DNA of 32,603 bases from Terriglobales bacterium. Lineage in GTDB: Bacteria > Acidobacteriota > Terriglobia > Terriglobales > Acidobacteriaceae. Of this stretch, positions 405 through 31,595 are shown one piece after another; the stretch's first letter is position 1; the number at the start of each line of letters is the position of its first letter. The notes beneath the pieces are model-generated. The model was not told the DNA's origin. It saw only the letters and a program-made list of their open reading frames with translations, and searched no databases. Location of the stretch: the NCBI GenBank assembly GCA_035624475.1, contig DASPRL010000099.1, positions 1 to 32,603 of the forward strand, read 5' to 3'. Position numbers and translations under genes: made by a program.

Positions 405-410
405 CGCGAT

Positions 411-501
411 CGGGTCATCGGGTCATTGGAAAAGCAGATCCCTCGTCGCGGCGCGACTCGGGATGACAAGCGCTAACTCCTAACTCCTAATTACAAACTC
501 C
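411..501. repeat. CGGGTCAT octamers and TAACTCC heptamers in the 325-501 gap
   Basis: Two copies of CGGGTCAT lie at 411-418 and 419-426. Heptamers follow at 474-480 (TAACTCC), 481-487 (TAACTCC), 488-494 (TAATTAC) and 495-501 (AAACTCC). The last unit abuts, and on the minus strand continues from, the stop codon of the TPR gene (502-504). The bases between 427 and 473 show no gene. Confidence 0.8.
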
Positions 502-9653: not shown

Positions 9654-9702
9654 AACTCCAAACTCCTAACTCCTAACTCCTGACCGCTGACCCCTGACTC
9701 CT
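9654..9702. repeat. Seven consecutive heptamers of the AACTCCT/GACTCCT family
   Basis: Units in order are AACTCCA, AACTCCT, AACTCCT, AACTCCT, GACCGCT, GACCCCT and GACTCCT, starting at 9654 with no gap. The array lies between the operon terminator and the start region of the MetX-like hydrolase. On the complementary strand the words read AGGAGTT and AGGAGTC, the same word as the array in front of typA. Confidence 0.92.
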
Positions 9703-12622: not shown

Positions 12623-12630
12623 GTTGCAGC

Positions 12631-12665
12631 AGGAGTCAGGGGTCAGTCGTCAGGAGTCAGGAAGA
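12631..12665 (+). repeat. AGGAGTC heptamer array that doubles as the typA ribosome site
   Basis: Consecutive heptamers are AGGAGTC (12631), AGGGGTC (12638), AGTCGTC (12645), AGGAGTC (12652) and AGGAAGA (12659). The last unit lies directly before the typA ATG at 12669 and supplies its Shine-Dalgarno sequence (AGGA). The words are the complement of the GACTCCT family at 9654-9702. Confidence 0.88.
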
Positions 12666-17226: not shown

Positions 17227-17268
17227 GGTCGTTGGTCGTCAGTCGTTGGTCGTTGGCCTTCGGTCGTC
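17227..17268. repeat. GGTCGTT heptamer array
   Basis: Six heptamers in a row: GGTCGTT, GGTCGTC, AGTCGTT, GGTCGTT, GGCCTTC and GGTCGTC. More GTCGTTG words run to about 17290, and then CTAGCTAC-type words continue to 17335. The array starts 5 bases after the msrQ stop and fills most of the gap to the next gene. Confidence 0.9.
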
Positions 17269-17381
17269 GGCAAGAGTCGTTGGTCGTTGGCCCTACTCCC
17301 CTTAGCTCCTGGCAACCAGCTACTAGCTACCTCTTGCCAAGTATCGCGGCACAGGCCAGAATCTCTTCCCCGGAGAAGGCG

Positions 17382-23166: not shown

Positions 23167-23214
23167 GTTTCAGGTTTCAGGTTTCACGTTTCAGGTGGAG
23201 TAGCTCCTAGCTCC
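23167..23214. repeat. GTTTCAG and TAGCTCC heptamer arrays
   Basis: Four heptamers, GTTTCAG, GTTTCAG, GTTTCAC and GTTTCAG, occupy 23167-23194. After six bases, TAGCTCC follows twice (23201-23214). On the minus strand the second array reads AGGAGCTAGGAGCTA, and this supplies the TAG stop of the esterase gene (23207-23209). Together they fill the whole gap upstream of ppx. Confidence 0.9.
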
Positions 23215-24610
23215 TGGGCTTGGAGGCGGGCAGCTGGGAGAGCTTCGCGACCAGCGCCTTGAAGCCTGCTTCGTTGCGGAGGCGGTCGAAGGCGGGGTCG
23301 TCGAGGAGCTTGGCGTTGGTGAGGCCGCGGTCCACGGCCTTCTGCAACTCCTGGATGGCCGGCTTCTTCTCGCCCAGTTGGGCGTTCGCGGTGGCCAGCA
23401 GATAGCAGGCCCAGGCACTGTCGGGCAGGATGACCTCGCTGGCGCGGAACAGGTCTCGGGCGGGGAGATAGTCCTTCTTGAGCATGGCTTGCTGGCCGCC
23501 CTCGGCGGCATAGGAAAAGGCCGAGGCCAGGGCTCGCTCGATGGCCTGCGCGCGGGCGGGGTCGGAGCCTTTCTTCTTTTCGCGCTCGGCGTCACCGACC
23601 GCCGCGCGGAGCTGGGCCAGCAGGGTGGCGGGCTCGTCCGCTCCCTGCGCGATGCCGCCGACCAGGCTGACCAGGCGGTTGGCGACTTCGTCCTGCAGAT
23701 CGAGTAGCGCCTGTTCGTTCTTCTGCGCCTTGCGGAACTCCTCGGAGGCGGCCAGCGACTGGGCGGCAGCCTCCACCTCCTTCACGTCGCGGAAGCCGCG
23801 GAAGTCCGCGACGATCTCGCGCTCGGTGCGGAGGGCGGCCACCAGCTCGCCGCGCTTCTGCGTCGCCTGCGCCTCGGCCAGCCGCTCTTCGAACTGCTGG
23901 TTGAGGAACTCCTTGTCTACCGGAGCCGCCCCTCGGGCCATGGCGCGCAACCGCAGCCAGGCCAGGGCGCGCCCAGCCACCTCCTTGGGCATCCAGTTGT
24001 GCGGGCCGTCATAGACCACGAAGCGGACGGCGGCGTGCCGTGCCACCAGCGCCTCGTCCAGCCGGAGCAGCTCGGGATAGTTGAAATCGGTGGTGCCGGC
24101 CACCAGGAACCAGTCGGCCACCTCCGGGCCGGGGACGGCGGCGCCCGGGAGCAGGCCCGCCCCGTTGGCGATCACTCCAGCGACACAGGTCTTGCAGGTC
24201 AGCGCGATGGAGGAGGCCACGCGCGCGCCGCCGGAAAGCCCGGCGACGTAGAAGCGGCGGGGATCGATGGCGTAGCGCTCATTCACATCCTTCCAGAGCA
24301 GTTGCACGGCCGCCGCCGGGTCTTGGAAGTTGCGCACGTCGTTGCTGCCCACCACCAGGAAGCCATGCTGCTCGGCCGCCTCCTGGAAGAGCTTGACCGC
24401 GACCTCCCCGCGGGCGAAGGGATCGAAGACCAGCAGCAGCGGCCAGCGCCGGGCCGGTGAGTAGGCCGAGGGCAGGTAGAGGGCGTAGCTGTTGGAGGAG
24501 TCGGCAAGTACCGCGACGGAGGGATGCACCACGCCGGGGGCCGGCGTCTGCGGATAAGCGGCCGAAGCAGTTCCGCACAGCACCAGGAGCAGTAGGAGGA
24601 GACGGCGCAT
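23207..24610 (-). CDS. Secreted esterase/phospholipase-like hydrolase with helical repeat C-terminus
   Basis: A 467-residue protein with a signal peptide (MRRLLLLLLVLCGTASAAYP). An alpha/beta-hydrolase part spans about 25-220. It has RWPLLLVFDPFARGE, the nucleophile elbow VAGLSGGARVASSIA (Ser126), an acidic segment in AGTTDFNYPELLRL and VVYDGPHNWMPKEVA (His). The second half is alpha-helical and TPR-like, ending with LFRASEVILPDSAWACYLLA and KKPAIQELQKAVDRGL. The substrate is unknown; the first half resembles PHB-depolymerase/carboxylesterase proteins. It lies inside the polyphosphate operon, yet it should be exported. Its stop codon lies inside a heptamer repeat. Confidence 0.78.
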   Translation of the reverse strand: MRRLLLLLLVLCGTASAAYPQTPAPGVVHPSVAVLADSSNSYALYLPSAYSPARRWPLLLVFDPFARGEVAVKLFQEAAEQHGFLVVGSNDVRNFQDPAAAVQLLWKDVNERYAIDPRRFYVAGLSGGARVASSIALTCKTCVAGVIANGAGLLPGAAVPGPEVADWFLVAGTTDFNYPELLRLDEALVARHAAVRFVVYDGPHNWMPKEVAGRALAWLRLRAMARGAAPVDKEFLNQQFEERLAEAQATQKRGELVAALRTEREIVADFRGFRDVKEVEAAAQSLAASEEFRKAQKNEQALLDLQDEVANRLVSLVGGIAQGADEPATLLAQLRAAVGDAEREKKKGSDPARAQAIERALASAFSYAAEGGQQAMLKKDYLPARDLFRASEVILPDSAWACYLLATANAQLGEKKPAIQELQKAVDRGLTNAKLLDDPAFDRLRNEAGFKALVAKLSQLPASKPRS

Positions 24611-27295: not shown

Positions 27296-27328
27296 TGGGT
27301 CATCGGATCATCGGCTTCATCGGGGTCA
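27296..27328. repeat. Degenerate CGGGTCAT octamers downstream of the DHA2 pump gene
   Basis: Words of the GGTCATCG type (GGGTCATC, GGATCATC, GGCTTCATC, GGGGTCAC) lie right after the MFS stop codon. They are diverged members of the same ATGACCCG family that precedes this gene at 28882-28909, so the family flanks the gene on both sides. Confidence 0.7.
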
Positions 27329-28885
27329 CTAATCCGCGACCGCCGGACGGTCGTGGTGCTGCGGCCGGCGCATGAGCAGGATGAGCGGCAGGGCCAGCAG
27401 GAACAGGATGCCCAGCAGCCGGAAGACGTCCACGAAGGAGAGCATGGCAGCCTGGCGCACCACCATGCCAAACAGCGCACCATAGGCGCGCTGGGTGGCG
27501 GTGACCATGTCGGCGCCCTGGCCCAGGAAGTAGCGGCGCAGGCCCTCGAACGTCATCCGCGTGGCGGTGTCGTAGGGAGTGACGTGGGCGCCCAGGATGT
27601 TGAGGTGGCGCTGGGTGTTGCGCGCCACCAGGGTGGTGGTGGTGGCGATGCCGATGCTGCCCCCGATGTTGCGCATGAGATTGAAGATGCTGGTGGCGTT
27701 GCCCATCTGCTCCTGGGGAATGGGATCGTGGGTGACGGTGGTGAGAGGGACGAAGAGCAGGCCCAGGGAGGTGCCCTGCAGGATGAGCGGCCAGAAGATG
27801 TCCCAGTAGCCGGCGTTGAGGTTGAGCGCGCCCAGCAGGAAGAGGCTGGCGGAGGAGGCCAGCAGGCCCACGCTCAGCAGCTTGCGAGGCTCGATCTTGG
27901 TGGTGAGGATGCCCACAATGGGCATGAACAGGAACGAGCCCAGGCCGCGGGGCAGCATGGCCAGCCCCGCCTGCAGCGCGGAATAGTCCATCAGGGTCTG
28001 CAGCCAGATGGGGATGAGCACGGTGGAACCGTAGAGCACGAAGCCCAGCACCGTCATCAGGAAGACGCCGGTGGTGTAGGTGCGGATCTTGAGCACGCGC
28101 AGGTTGACCACGGGATGCGGCGAGCGCAGCTCGTTCACGATGAACAGCAGCAGCCCCACCGCCGCCGTCACCGCCAGCACCTGGATGAAGCGGGAGGAGA
28201 ACCAGTCCTCCTCCTGGCCCTTGTCGAGGAAGATCTGCAGGGCGCCCATGCCCACCGCCAGCAGCCCGATGCCCCAGTAGTCGATGCGCCCGGAGGCGCG
28301 GCGGATATACGGCGGATCGAAGATGAACAAAAAGCACATCGCCAGCGCCGCCAAGCCGACCGGGATGTTGATGTAAAAGAGCCAGCGCCAGGAGTAGCTG
28401 TCGGTGATCCAGCCGCCCAGCACCGGGCCCAGCATGGGCGCCACCACGATGCCCAGCGCCCAGAAGGCCATGGCGCGCCCGCGCTTCTCCGGGGGGAAAG
28501 CCTCCAGCATGATGGCCTGGGAGAGAGGCTGCAGGCCGCCGCCGCAGGCCCCCTGGATGACGCGGAACACGATGAGCGAGCCCAGGCTGGGGGCCACGCC
28601 GCAGGCCATGGAGGCCAGGGTGAAGCCGGTGACCGAGAGCAGCAGGATGCGCTTGCGCCCGAAGTGATTGGCCAGCCACCCGGTCATGGGCAGGATGATG
28701 GCGTTGGCCACCAGGTAGGAGGTCAGCACCCAGGTGGCCTCGTCGGTGGTGGCGGAGAGGTTGCCGGCGATGTGCTCCAGGGAGACGTTGACCACGGTCG
28801 TGTCGAGCACCTCCATGAAGGTGCCCAGCATCACCGCCACCGCGATGATCCAGGGATTGATGGGAGCATCGGGAGATTTGGTCAT
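27329..28885 (-). CDS. DHA2-family drug efflux permease (EmrB/QacA type, 14 helices)
   Basis: The 518-residue inner-membrane proton antiporter is the pump of a tripartite system. It has motif A-like GWLANHFGRKRILL and the motif C region GIVVAPMLGPVLGGWITD. NIPVGLAAL follows SYSWRWLFYI, as in EmrB proteins. The conserved DTTVVNVSLEHIAGNL at about 28-43 is typical of the DHA2 first helix. The substrate is unknown; lipophilic drugs or fatty acids are usual. The ATG at 28885 has no Shine-Dalgarno sequence and is the fourth ATG of an ATGACCCG repeat that starts in the HlyD stop codon, so translation should depend on re-initiation. Confidence 0.94.
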   Translation of the reverse strand: MTKSPDAPINPWIIAVAVMLGTFMEVLDTTVVNVSLEHIAGNLSATTDEATWVLTSYLVANAIILPMTGWLANHFGRKRILLLSVTGFTLASMACGVAPSLGSLIVFRVIQGACGGGLQPLSQAIMLEAFPPEKRGRAMAFWALGIVVAPMLGPVLGGWITDSYSWRWLFYINIPVGLAALAMCFLFIFDPPYIRRASGRIDYWGIGLLAVGMGALQIFLDKGQEEDWFSSRFIQVLAVTAAVGLLLFIVNELRSPHPVVNLRVLKIRTYTTGVFLMTVLGFVLYGSTVLIPIWLQTLMDYSALQAGLAMLPRGLGSFLFMPIVGILTTKIEPRKLLSVGLLASSASLFLLGALNLNAGYWDIFWPLILQGTSLGLLFVPLTTVTHDPIPQEQMGNATSIFNLMRNIGGSIGIATTTTLVARNTQRHLNILGAHVTPYDTATRMTFEGLRRYFLGQGADMVTATQRAYGALFGMVVRQAAMLSFVDVFRLLGILFLLALPLILLMRRPQHHDRPAVAD

Positions 28886-28909
28886 CGGGTCATCGGGTCA
28901 TCGGGTCAT
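28882..28909 (-). repeat. ATGACCCG octamer array linking the HlyD stop to the MFS start
   Basis: On the minus strand ATGACCCG occurs three times, then ATGA. The ATGs begin at 28909, 28901, 28893 and 28885. The first overlaps the HlyD stop (TGA 28908-28906). Each of the first three opens a frame Met-Thr-Arg-stop whose TGA overlaps the next ATG as ATGA. The fourth ATG is the MFS start. The result is a ladder of four stop-start junctions spaced 8 bases apart. Confidence 0.93.
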
Positions 28910-30153
28910 TTGACGAGGACGGTGGGCACCACCGACATGCCGGGGCGGAGGCGATGCTCCGGGTCCTGGCCGGGGTCGAGCACGATCTTGACCGGGATGC
29001 GCTGCACCACCTTGACGTAGTTGCCGGTGGCGTTCTCCGGGGGCAGCAGGCTGAAGCGGGCGCCGGTGGCGCCGCCGATCGAATCCACGTGGCCGCGGTA
29101 GCTGCGCCCGAAGGCGTCCACCGAGACCGAGGCCGGCTGCCCGGGTTTCATGTGGCGCAGTTGCGTCTCCTTGAAGTTGGCGGTCACCCACAGGTCGTCG
29201 AGGTTGACCAGGGCGTACAGGGGCTGGCCCGCCTGCACTACCTGCCCGGGCTCGACCGAGCGCTTGCTGACGACGCCGGTGACGGGGGCGCGCACGGTGC
29301 AGTACTGCAGGTTCAACTGCGCCTGTTCGACCGCCGCCTGGTACTTGAGGACGGCGGCGGAGGCGGCGCCGGCGCGGGCCTCGCTCATGGCCACCTGCTG
29401 GGGTGCGGTCTGGGCGGCGCGCACCGCGGCTTCGGCCTCCGCCACGCGGCTCTGCGCCATGGCCACTTGCGCCTGGGCGGCCTCCACCGTGGCCCGGGCC
29501 GCCTGCTCGGCGGCCACAGCGGCGTCGTACTGCTGCTGCGAGATCTCGTCGCGCGCGATGAGGTCCTGGAAGCGCTTGAGGTCGGCGGCCACCTTGGTGT
29601 AGTTGGCCTGGGCCTCGGCCAGGCGGGCGCGGGCGGCATCGGCGCCCTTGCGCGCTGCCGCCAGCGAAGCCTGCGCGCTGCTCAAGGTGCTGGCGGTGGA
29701 GGTGGACATCACCGGCACCCCGGTATGGGCGGCGCGGGCGTTGGCTTCGGCATCGGCCAGCTCGGCGCGGGCGCGCGCCAGCGCCACCTCGTAGTCCTTG
29801 GGATCGAGTTGCGCCAGCACCGTGCCCGCCTGCACGTAGGCGTTGTCCTCGAAGTTCACCTGCAGAACGGTGCCGGAGACGCGGGCGCTCACGGGGGTGA
29901 TGTGGCCGTCGATCTGGGCGTCGTCGGTGGACTCGCGCGCCGCGTAGTAGCGCCAGGCCGCGACCGCGGCCACCAGGGCCAGCACCACCACCGCCAGCAG
30001 CACCCAGCGCGCGCCGGGGTGCTCGCGCAGGTAAGAGACGCGCTCGGGCAGCGCCAGCTCCGGGACCTCCTCGGTCCAGGTCTCGCGCCCCGGTTCCGCC
30101 GGCTTGGCTTCCAGTTTGGGTTCGCGCTCCACGCTCGTCCTATCCTGCGTCAT
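28906..30153 (-). CDS. HlyD/EmrA-family membrane fusion protein
   Basis: This periplasmic adaptor bridges the inner-membrane pump and the outer-membrane channel. Of 415 residues, about 1-46 are cytoplasmic, acidic and glutamate-rich; about 48-70 form one membrane helix (WVLLAVVVLALVAAVAAWRY). A lipoyl-like strand, HITPVSARVSGTVLQVNFED, follows, then a long alanine-rich coiled coil (about 125-265, with LAEAQANYTKVAADLKRFQD). The second lipoyl half is CTVRAPVTGVVSKRSVEPGQ and the beta-barrel is DLWVTANFKETQLRHMKPGQ. The start overlaps the TolC stop by ATGA. Confidence 0.95.
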   Translation of the reverse strand: MTQDRTSVEREPKLEAKPAEPGRETWTEEVPELALPERVSYLREHPGARWVLLAVVVLALVAAVAAWRYYAARESTDDAQIDGHITPVSARVSGTVLQVNFEDNAYVQAGTVLAQLDPKDYEVALARARAELADAEANARAAHTGVPVMSTSTASTLSSAQASLAAARKGADAARARLAEAQANYTKVAADLKRFQDLIARDEISQQQYDAAVAAEQAARATVEAAQAQVAMAQSRVAEAEAAVRAAQTAPQQVAMSEARAGAASAAVLKYQAAVEQAQLNLQYCTVRAPVTGVVSKRSVEPGQVVQAGQPLYALVNLDDLWVTANFKETQLRHMKPGQPASVSVDAFGRSYRGHVDSIGGATGARFSLLPPENATGNYVKVVQRIPVKIVLDPGQDPEHRLRPGMSVVPTVLVK

Positions 30154-31595
30154 TTCTTCTCTTCCAGGTAGTTCCGGGTCTCTTTCTCGGCCACTCCCAG
30201 GGCGTGCGCCATGACCAGCTTGGCGACGTTGTGGGCGTTGAGGCTGGCGATGTAATTCTCGTCGGCCTGGGCCACGGCCTGCTGCGCCTGCACCACCTCC
30301 ACGTTGTCGGTGACGCCGGCGGCGAAGCGGTCCTGCGACTGCTGCAACTGCTGGCGGGCCAGTTCCACCGCCTGTTGCGCCACCTCGACGCGTTGGGCGG
30401 CGGTACGCAGATCGAGGAAGGCATTGCGCACCTCCAGCTCGATGGCCCCGCGCAGGTCGGCCAGCTCATCCTGACGGCGGCGCAGAGTGGCGTCGGCACG
30501 CAGGGTATCGCCGTGCACCTTGCCCCCCTGGAAGAGGGGGATGCGCACCCCGGCTCCGATGGTGAAGGTGCTGCGGGCGTTGCCGGGATTGTTGCCGATC
30601 AGACCGTAGTCGCCGGCCAGGCCGAAGGAAGGCAGGGCCTCGCCCTGTGCCGCCTTCTTCTCCCACTCGGCGGCGCGCACCCGCGCCAGGCCGGCCTGGT
30701 AGTCGGCGCGGTTGCGGTAGGCGACCTCCAGGGCGTGCTCCAGGGTCAGCTCCTGCAGGGGCTCGTAGGGGAGCTTGCTGCTGAGTTCGAACGGCTGGCC
30801 CAGGGGCAGGCCGATGACGCGCGCCAGCAGCAGCTTCTGCTTTTCGAAGTCGTTGCGGACGGAGAGCAGATCCTGCTGGCGGGCTTGCATCTCCACTTGG
30901 GCGCGCAGCACGTCCAGCCCGGGGACCACGCCGGCATGGCGCAGGTCCACGGCCTGGCGGTAGAGGCGCTGGGCGGTGGCGTACTGGGCCTCAGCCGACT
31001 GCACGCGCGCGGCCCCCGCCAGGGCCTGCAGGTACGACGCCCCCACCACCAGCACCACCAGCTCGCGCGCGTCCTGGAAGGTGAACTGGGCGGCGCGCAG
31101 GTTCTGGTTGGCGGCGCGGTAGCGGTTCACGCTCTCGAAGCCCACCGACTGCTCCAGGAAGGCGCGGGTGTCGAAGACGTCGAAGGGGGGCGTGACCGGG
31201 GAGACTCCCGCCGGGATGGGAATGCCGAAGGTGGACAGGTTGATCTGCTCGCGCGTGAGCGAGGTCTCGGTGGTGAGCTTGGGCAGCAGCTCGCTCAGGC
31301 TGCGCCAGCGGGCGCCGCGCGAGCTTTCGGTCTCGTGGCCGGCCAGCAAGAGGCCGAGATTATGCCGCAGACCGCGGTCCAGGGCGTCGGAGACGGAGAG
31401 CTGCAACACGCCGGGCGTGACCTGGCCTTCGGCGACGCTGCCCAGGAAGGGATCCTGCGTCCCGGGGAGGGCGGGCACGGAGGGAGCGCCCGGGGCCGAT
31501 GTGCCGGCGGGAGCGGGCGCTAGCTGCGCCGCGGCGGCGGCGGCGAGGACGAGCCAGCAGCAGCCAAGATGCATCACCCGCATGAAGCGCGGCAT
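30150..31595 (-). CDS. TolC-family outer-membrane efflux channel
   Basis: The open frame reaches 32015, but that extension crosses the operator region. I use the ATG at 31595 (MPRFMRVMHLGCCWLVLAAA), which gives a signal peptide; an ATG four codons later (31583) is possible. The 481-residue protein has the two-fold repeat of OEP domains, with LSVSDALDRGLRHNLGLLLA and ELTLEHALEVAYRNRADYQA at the equivalent points. Alanine- and glutamine-rich helices follow (VEVAQQAVELARQQLQQSQD). A GIGID-type turn is replaced by RFAAGVTDNVEVVQAQQAVA. It is the first gene of the tripartite efflux operon TolC-HlyD-MFS. Confidence 0.93.
   Translation of the reverse strand: MPRFMRVMHLGCCWLVLAAAAAAQLAPAPAGTSAPGAPSVPALPGTQDPFLGSVAEGQVTPGVLQLSVSDALDRGLRHNLGLLLAGHETESSRGARWRSLSELLPKLTTETSLTREQINLSTFGIPIPAGVSPVTPPFDVFDTRAFLEQSVGFESVNRYRAANQNLRAAQFTFQDARELVVLVVGASYLQALAGAARVQSAEAQYATAQRLYRQAVDLRHAGVVPGLDVLRAQVEMQARQQDLLSVRNDFEKQKLLLARVIGLPLGQPFELSSKLPYEPLQELTLEHALEVAYRNRADYQAGLARVRAAEWEKKAAQGEALPSFGLAGDYGLIGNNPGNARSTFTIGAGVRIPLFQGGKVHGDTLRADATLRRRQDELADLRGAIELEVRNAFLDLRTAAQRVEVAQQAVELARQQLQQSQDRFAAGVTDNVEVVQAQQAVAQADENYIASLNAHNVAKLVMAHALGVAEKETRNYLEEKK

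Follow-up and report, generated by a model that had tools for sequence, protein, structure and literature searches.

In a soil-type organism placed among the Terriglobia (Acidobacteriota), two adjacent genes of an efflux-pump operon are joined by a tandem array of octamers in which stop and start codons overlap, which raises the question of whether the number of units tunes expression of the downstream gene or whether a repeat has simply settled at an operon junction. The whole stretch of DNA analyzed, 32,603 nucleotides long, is referred to here as the window, and its relevant features are the following:

28906..30153, minus strand: HlyD/EmrA-type periplasmic adaptor gene (HlyD_3, 2.8e-22; TIGR00998, 4.7e-80)
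27329..28885, minus strand: EmrB/DHA2-type MFS efflux permease gene (MFS_1, 8.6e-64; TIGR00711, 1.6e-149, above cut-off)
30150..31478, minus strand: TolC-type outer-membrane efflux gene of the same operon (OEP, 5.6e-48)
28882..28909, minus strand: three ATGACCCG units plus ATGA, with four overlapping stop-start (ATGA) junctions (sequence, TRF)
27296..27323, minus strand: degenerate octamer array (ATGATCCGATGACCCA and neighbors), directly after the MFS stop
409..426, minus strand: second perfect octamer dimer of the window, located between genes

The stop-start array at the HlyD-MFS junction

Read on the minus strand, positions 28909-28882 consist of ATGACCCG three times plus ATGA (28 nt), in a surrounding stretch (28950-28850) that includes GTCCTCGTCAAATGACCCGATGACCCGATGACCCGATGACCAAATCTCCC. 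The four ATGs of the array start at 28909, 28901, 28893, and 28885, in 8-bp steps, and each of the first three reads ATG ACC CGA TGA (Met-Thr-Arg-stop), every mini-ORF TGA sharing an ATGA with the following ATG and the third mini-ORF overlapping the MFS start. The 3' end of the HlyD gene is GTC AAA TGA, its stop being the first TGA of the array, and the fourth ATG (28885) is the sole in-frame MFS start between this stop and the conserved INPW motif, at a distance of +20 nt. On the other side of the HlyD gene, the stop of the TolC-type gene and the HlyD start share 4 nt (ATGA); the 5' end of that gene (31478) was set by a home-made gene caller, and the longest ORF reaches 32015. The initial annotation of this DNA had described four ATGA stop-start junctions at 28882-28909 and Met-Thr-Arg mini-ORFs whose TGA overlaps the next ATG, and both descriptions are exact; its claim that adding or removing a unit keeps the frame holds for the HlyD and the MFS reading frames alike.

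Chance does not produce the junction array. With up to 3 mismatches allowed, the 28-mer occurs once in the window and in none of 100 dinucleotide shuffles. Its units are perfect (100% match, TRF), which could reflect either recent expansion or purifying selection, two causes that look alike in one genome. Other candidate signals at the junction were rejected, namely RNA structure (z -0.40 and no Rfam match) and a promoter or terminator (none detected).

Octamer arrays across the genome and in relatives

The octamer dimer is present at 11 separate places in the organism's own genome (reversed control, 0), and the degenerate form CCGATNNCCCGATNNCC has 53 matches there versus 0 for the control. 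Among octamer-family arrays for which gene calls are available, 27 of 30 are intergenic, in either orientation; genes outside the window were called with a simple home-made codon-based caller, on which start positions depend. The identical 28-mer recurs at G000:C290:15691-15718, where it can start no gene because the neighboring genes are convergent. The intergenic bias extends to short-period repeats in an unbiased 395 kb sample, in which 77 of the 103 period-7/8 arrays are intergenic, 4 lie at a gene edge, and 22 are coding, with a non-coding share of bases of 13.8%; arrays of period 6, 9, 12, and 15 in the same sample are nearly all coding. Rather than being a device of the efflux operon, the octamer is part of a degenerate family whose dozens of sites in this genome are mostly intergenic. 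The family unit is roughly CGATNNCC / ATGANYCR, and occurs throughout intergenic gaps of this genome and of some relatives.

The window holds further 7/8-bp arrays (355-404, 473-502, 1275-1376, 1886-1913, 9654-9702, 12630-12662, 17227-17290, and 23167-23215), mostly in gaps, with units that include AAGGTTTC (six copies), AACTCCT, CAGGAGT, and GGTCGTT, among others; AGGAGTT (1275-1304) and AACTCCT (1348-1376) are inverted copies. The diversity of 7/8-bp units is high, which points to a general tendency of the genome and not to a single element.

ATGA-octamer arrays in Terriglobia are often outward-facing hairpin arms, of the form [TCATnnnn]n, a loop of about 12-52 nt, and [nnnnATGA]n, examples being the intergenic gaps of L254, L263, L234, L242, L253, L126, L128, and L143. 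An antisense array lies at most 100 nt away on the 5' side in 21 of 53 ladders and on the 3' side in 1, and accompanies 33 of 1158 control intergenic points. Predicted folds of the hairpin arrays reach about -58 kcal/mol, and -70 for the longest array. In the sampled genomes, 26 of 35 co-directional ladders abut a gene boundary no more than 24 nt away on their 3' side. The possibility that the window array is itself one arm of an octamer hairpin was considered, but the junction contains no partner arm.

None of 150 relatives drawn for comparison is a same-genus genome, and identity to the nearest MFS proteins is 72-74%. Of the 150 genomes in this draw, 6 contain the exact octamer dimer, the organism's own included. 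Across the class, period-8 ATGA ladders built from other units (ATGATTCA, ATGACTCA, and others) give 147 matches, spread over 35 of 399 genomes, against a reversed control of 47 matches in 13 genomes, half of them from one genome (both sums made by hand). One genome of the same order (G090) has 23 matches to the reversed control, (AGTAnnnn)x3+AGTA, an excess that suggests a different abundant octamer family.

We compared the junction with 45 homologous loci having adjacent HlyD and MFS genes, at least 2 of them duplicates (about 43 related junctions), and ATGACCCG was found at none of them. Stop-start spacing is 20 nt or less at about 25 of the 45 loci (hand-counted), including TAATG and ATGA overlaps. 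Since many of these related junctions are tight and none carries ATGACCCG, the tight operon junction is old and the array new. Among the 53 sampled ladders, only that of the window forms a junction of both genes, with the stop of one neighbor and the start of the other. The absence of ATGACCCG from related junctions, together with the family's genome-wide spread and the 28-mer in a convergent gap, does not bear out the initial proposal that the repeat acts as an expression-tuning device here. In other Acidobacteriota, unrelated 7/8-bp arrays occupy the HlyD-MFS junction at L151:2870-3001 and L164:2950-2996; the former has units AGAAAGTG and ACTTCCTC in two mutually inverted arrays, one over the HlyD end and the other before the MFS start, and the latter is of the CTCGAAC/CGGACCTC type.

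Translation of the MFS gene across the junction

As initially noted, the MFS gene has no visible Shine-Dalgarno sequence: no GGAG, AGGA, or GAGG core is found in the 20 nt upstream of the fourth ATG (CCCGATGACCCGATGACCCG), a stretch that is C/G-rich. This was rejected as a special trait of the MFS gene, because in its own genome the core precedes 43% of predicted genes, versus 14% of random sites, and is absent from 57%.

At ATGA overlaps, termination-reinitiation allows the ribosome of the upstream gene to feed the downstream start (PMC6728339, PMC10666635), and such overlaps are among the most efficient coupling spacings, the best range being -4 to +3 nt (PMC10666635, PMC12548453). Native pairs at about +14 nt lose 40-80% of coupling; near 20 nt almost no coupling remains according to one recent study, and another saw no loss up to +25 nt (PMC10666635, PMC12548453). 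The intermediate ATGAs might therefore help a ribosome to cross the 20 nt. A toy path model of re-initiation, which uses assumed kernels and parameters and is illustrative only, assigns at most about 4% of MFS starts to the pure four-step path unless hopping is forbidden, and predicts that each added unit multiplies the yield by about 0.35-0.98 for r up to 0.3; the E. coli-like kernel at r = 0.4 was left out, as its probabilities exceed the allowed limits when copy number is high. Stepwise re-initiation as initially described is allowed by the geometry, but is not the only route, given the published coupling at about +20 nt and the toy model.

The reading that we favor, and consider probable though well short of certain, is that the ladder is a lineage-specific octamer microsatellite tolerated at an operon junction, with the MFS gene ordinarily coupled and no dedicated tuning by copy number. 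The array may have originated from an ancestral ATGA overlap (...GTCAAATGACC...), either through an 8-bp duplication of it or through family units transferred there. We infer that the array is tolerated owing to two properties of its unit, which carries an ATGA and has a length (8) not divisible by 3. Every frame therefore has a TGA, so that HlyD always stops; any incoming gene would reach one after at most three units, and the last ATG, open downstream, could start the MFS gene. Units could accordingly be gained or lost with neither protein broken, and since 8-bp duplication of an ATGA overlap leaves both proteins whole, we infer that the array can persist without selection for tuning. The MFS gene would probably be translated through ordinary coupling to HlyD, either by termination-reinitiation over about 20 nt, perhaps partly aided by the intermediate ATGs, or by local unfolding and fresh 30S entry. 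Against the tolerated-microsatellite reading, the junction array, unlike the other sites, supplies both a stop and a start, and therefore must touch MFS initiation, even if unselected; its perfect units, which purifying selection could have kept, and the dependence of gene starts elsewhere on a simple caller also weigh against this reading.

In one alternative, a ribosome leaving HlyD re-initiates step by step at each ATGA, so that octamer number sets MFS yield as selected, graded variation. The exact ATGA overlaps, the three codons per step, the preserved frame, and the missing Shine-Dalgarno sequence would suit such a mechanism, as would the modeled change in yield per unit (under the kernels assumed above), and tandem octamers are slippage-prone in principle. 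However, an identical array sits in a convergent gap where it is unable to act, homologous HlyD-MFS junctions lack the array, and early peptidyl-tRNA drop-off (a mean of 10.5% for dipeptidyl-tRNA in E. coli) together with the loss at each step makes three-codon ladders inefficient (PMC10192219). We regard this alternative as unlikely, and slightly more so the related idea of a translational rheostat in which octamer count, through re-initiation steps, sets the ratio of pump subunits while the frames are never broken. Initiation of the MFS gene de novo at the fourth ATG, independently of HlyD translation and with the array as a neutral spacer, is easier to accept, being in line with the frequent lack of a Shine-Dalgarno core in this genome and with a junction RNA that is not unusually structured, but we still find it rather improbable: no promoter-like site lies near the junction, the upstream 20 nt are rich in C and G, and tight or overlapping spacing, usually a companion of coupling, is common among homologous junctions.

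The array might also be bound by a protein specific for its RNA or DNA sequence, or act as a recombination substrate, a role that would be common to all octamer arrays in the genome. Such a role has been proposed for TAACTGA arrays, and dozens of similar arrays in this genome, the position of ladders against gene boundaries, and the inverted partner arms are consistent with it; nevertheless, both orientations occur, the units are degenerate, and the HlyD-MFS junction has no hairpin partner, so we give this explanation very little credence.

Precedents and significance

Two known repeat types come closest to the array. MIRUs are dispersed mycobacterial repeats located at start codons, each bringing a small ORF of its own that is coupled at -4 nt (reviewed in PMC12548453); their loci are variable in copy number (PMC3635867), and they probably leave expression of neighboring genes largely intact (PMC12548453). 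The junction mini-ORF ATG ACC CGA TGA likewise overlaps the next start at -4 nt, but the unit is 8 bp rather than a minisatellite, the ORF encodes only Met-Thr-Arg, and the phylum is Acidobacteriota. The TAACTGA heptamer arrays of marine Beggiatoaceae are mainly intergenic, lie near starts where they replace the Shine-Dalgarno sequence, carry stop codons in every frame, and in some cases overlap the stop of the upstream gene; a translational role has been proposed for them (PMC4679880). The octamer family is similarly genome-wide, mostly intergenic, and near gene boundaries; its unit differs, however: ATGACCCG provides a start as well as a stop and therefore forms a ladder, while TAACTGA lacks a start codon. 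The nearest precedent is thus the MIRU in mechanism and the TAACTGA array in form, and the array belongs to neither.

The GGGAATC / GGGGA(T/C)T heptamers of Xanthomonas and Nostoc, which are mostly intergenic and vary in length between close relatives (PMC4692102), are also short repeats found genome-wide, but they are of the G-quadruplex type, unrelated in sequence, and have no stop-start function. Classic ATGA gene pairs share the overlap geometry, but the HlyD and MFS genes are joined at +20 nt through mini-ORFs rather than at -4 or -1 nt. Titles and abstracts of open-licence papers held nothing relevant on such repeats in Acidobacteria.

If the ladder works, a microsatellite would be the source of frame-neutral variation in expression, a mode unlike on/off phase variation. 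Even without a function, it illustrates that a dispersed ATGA-bearing repeat can settle harmlessly in an operon junction. More broadly, these results indicate a widespread family of octamer repeats and hairpins in the intergenic gaps of Acidobacteriota, one that appears to have been little described.
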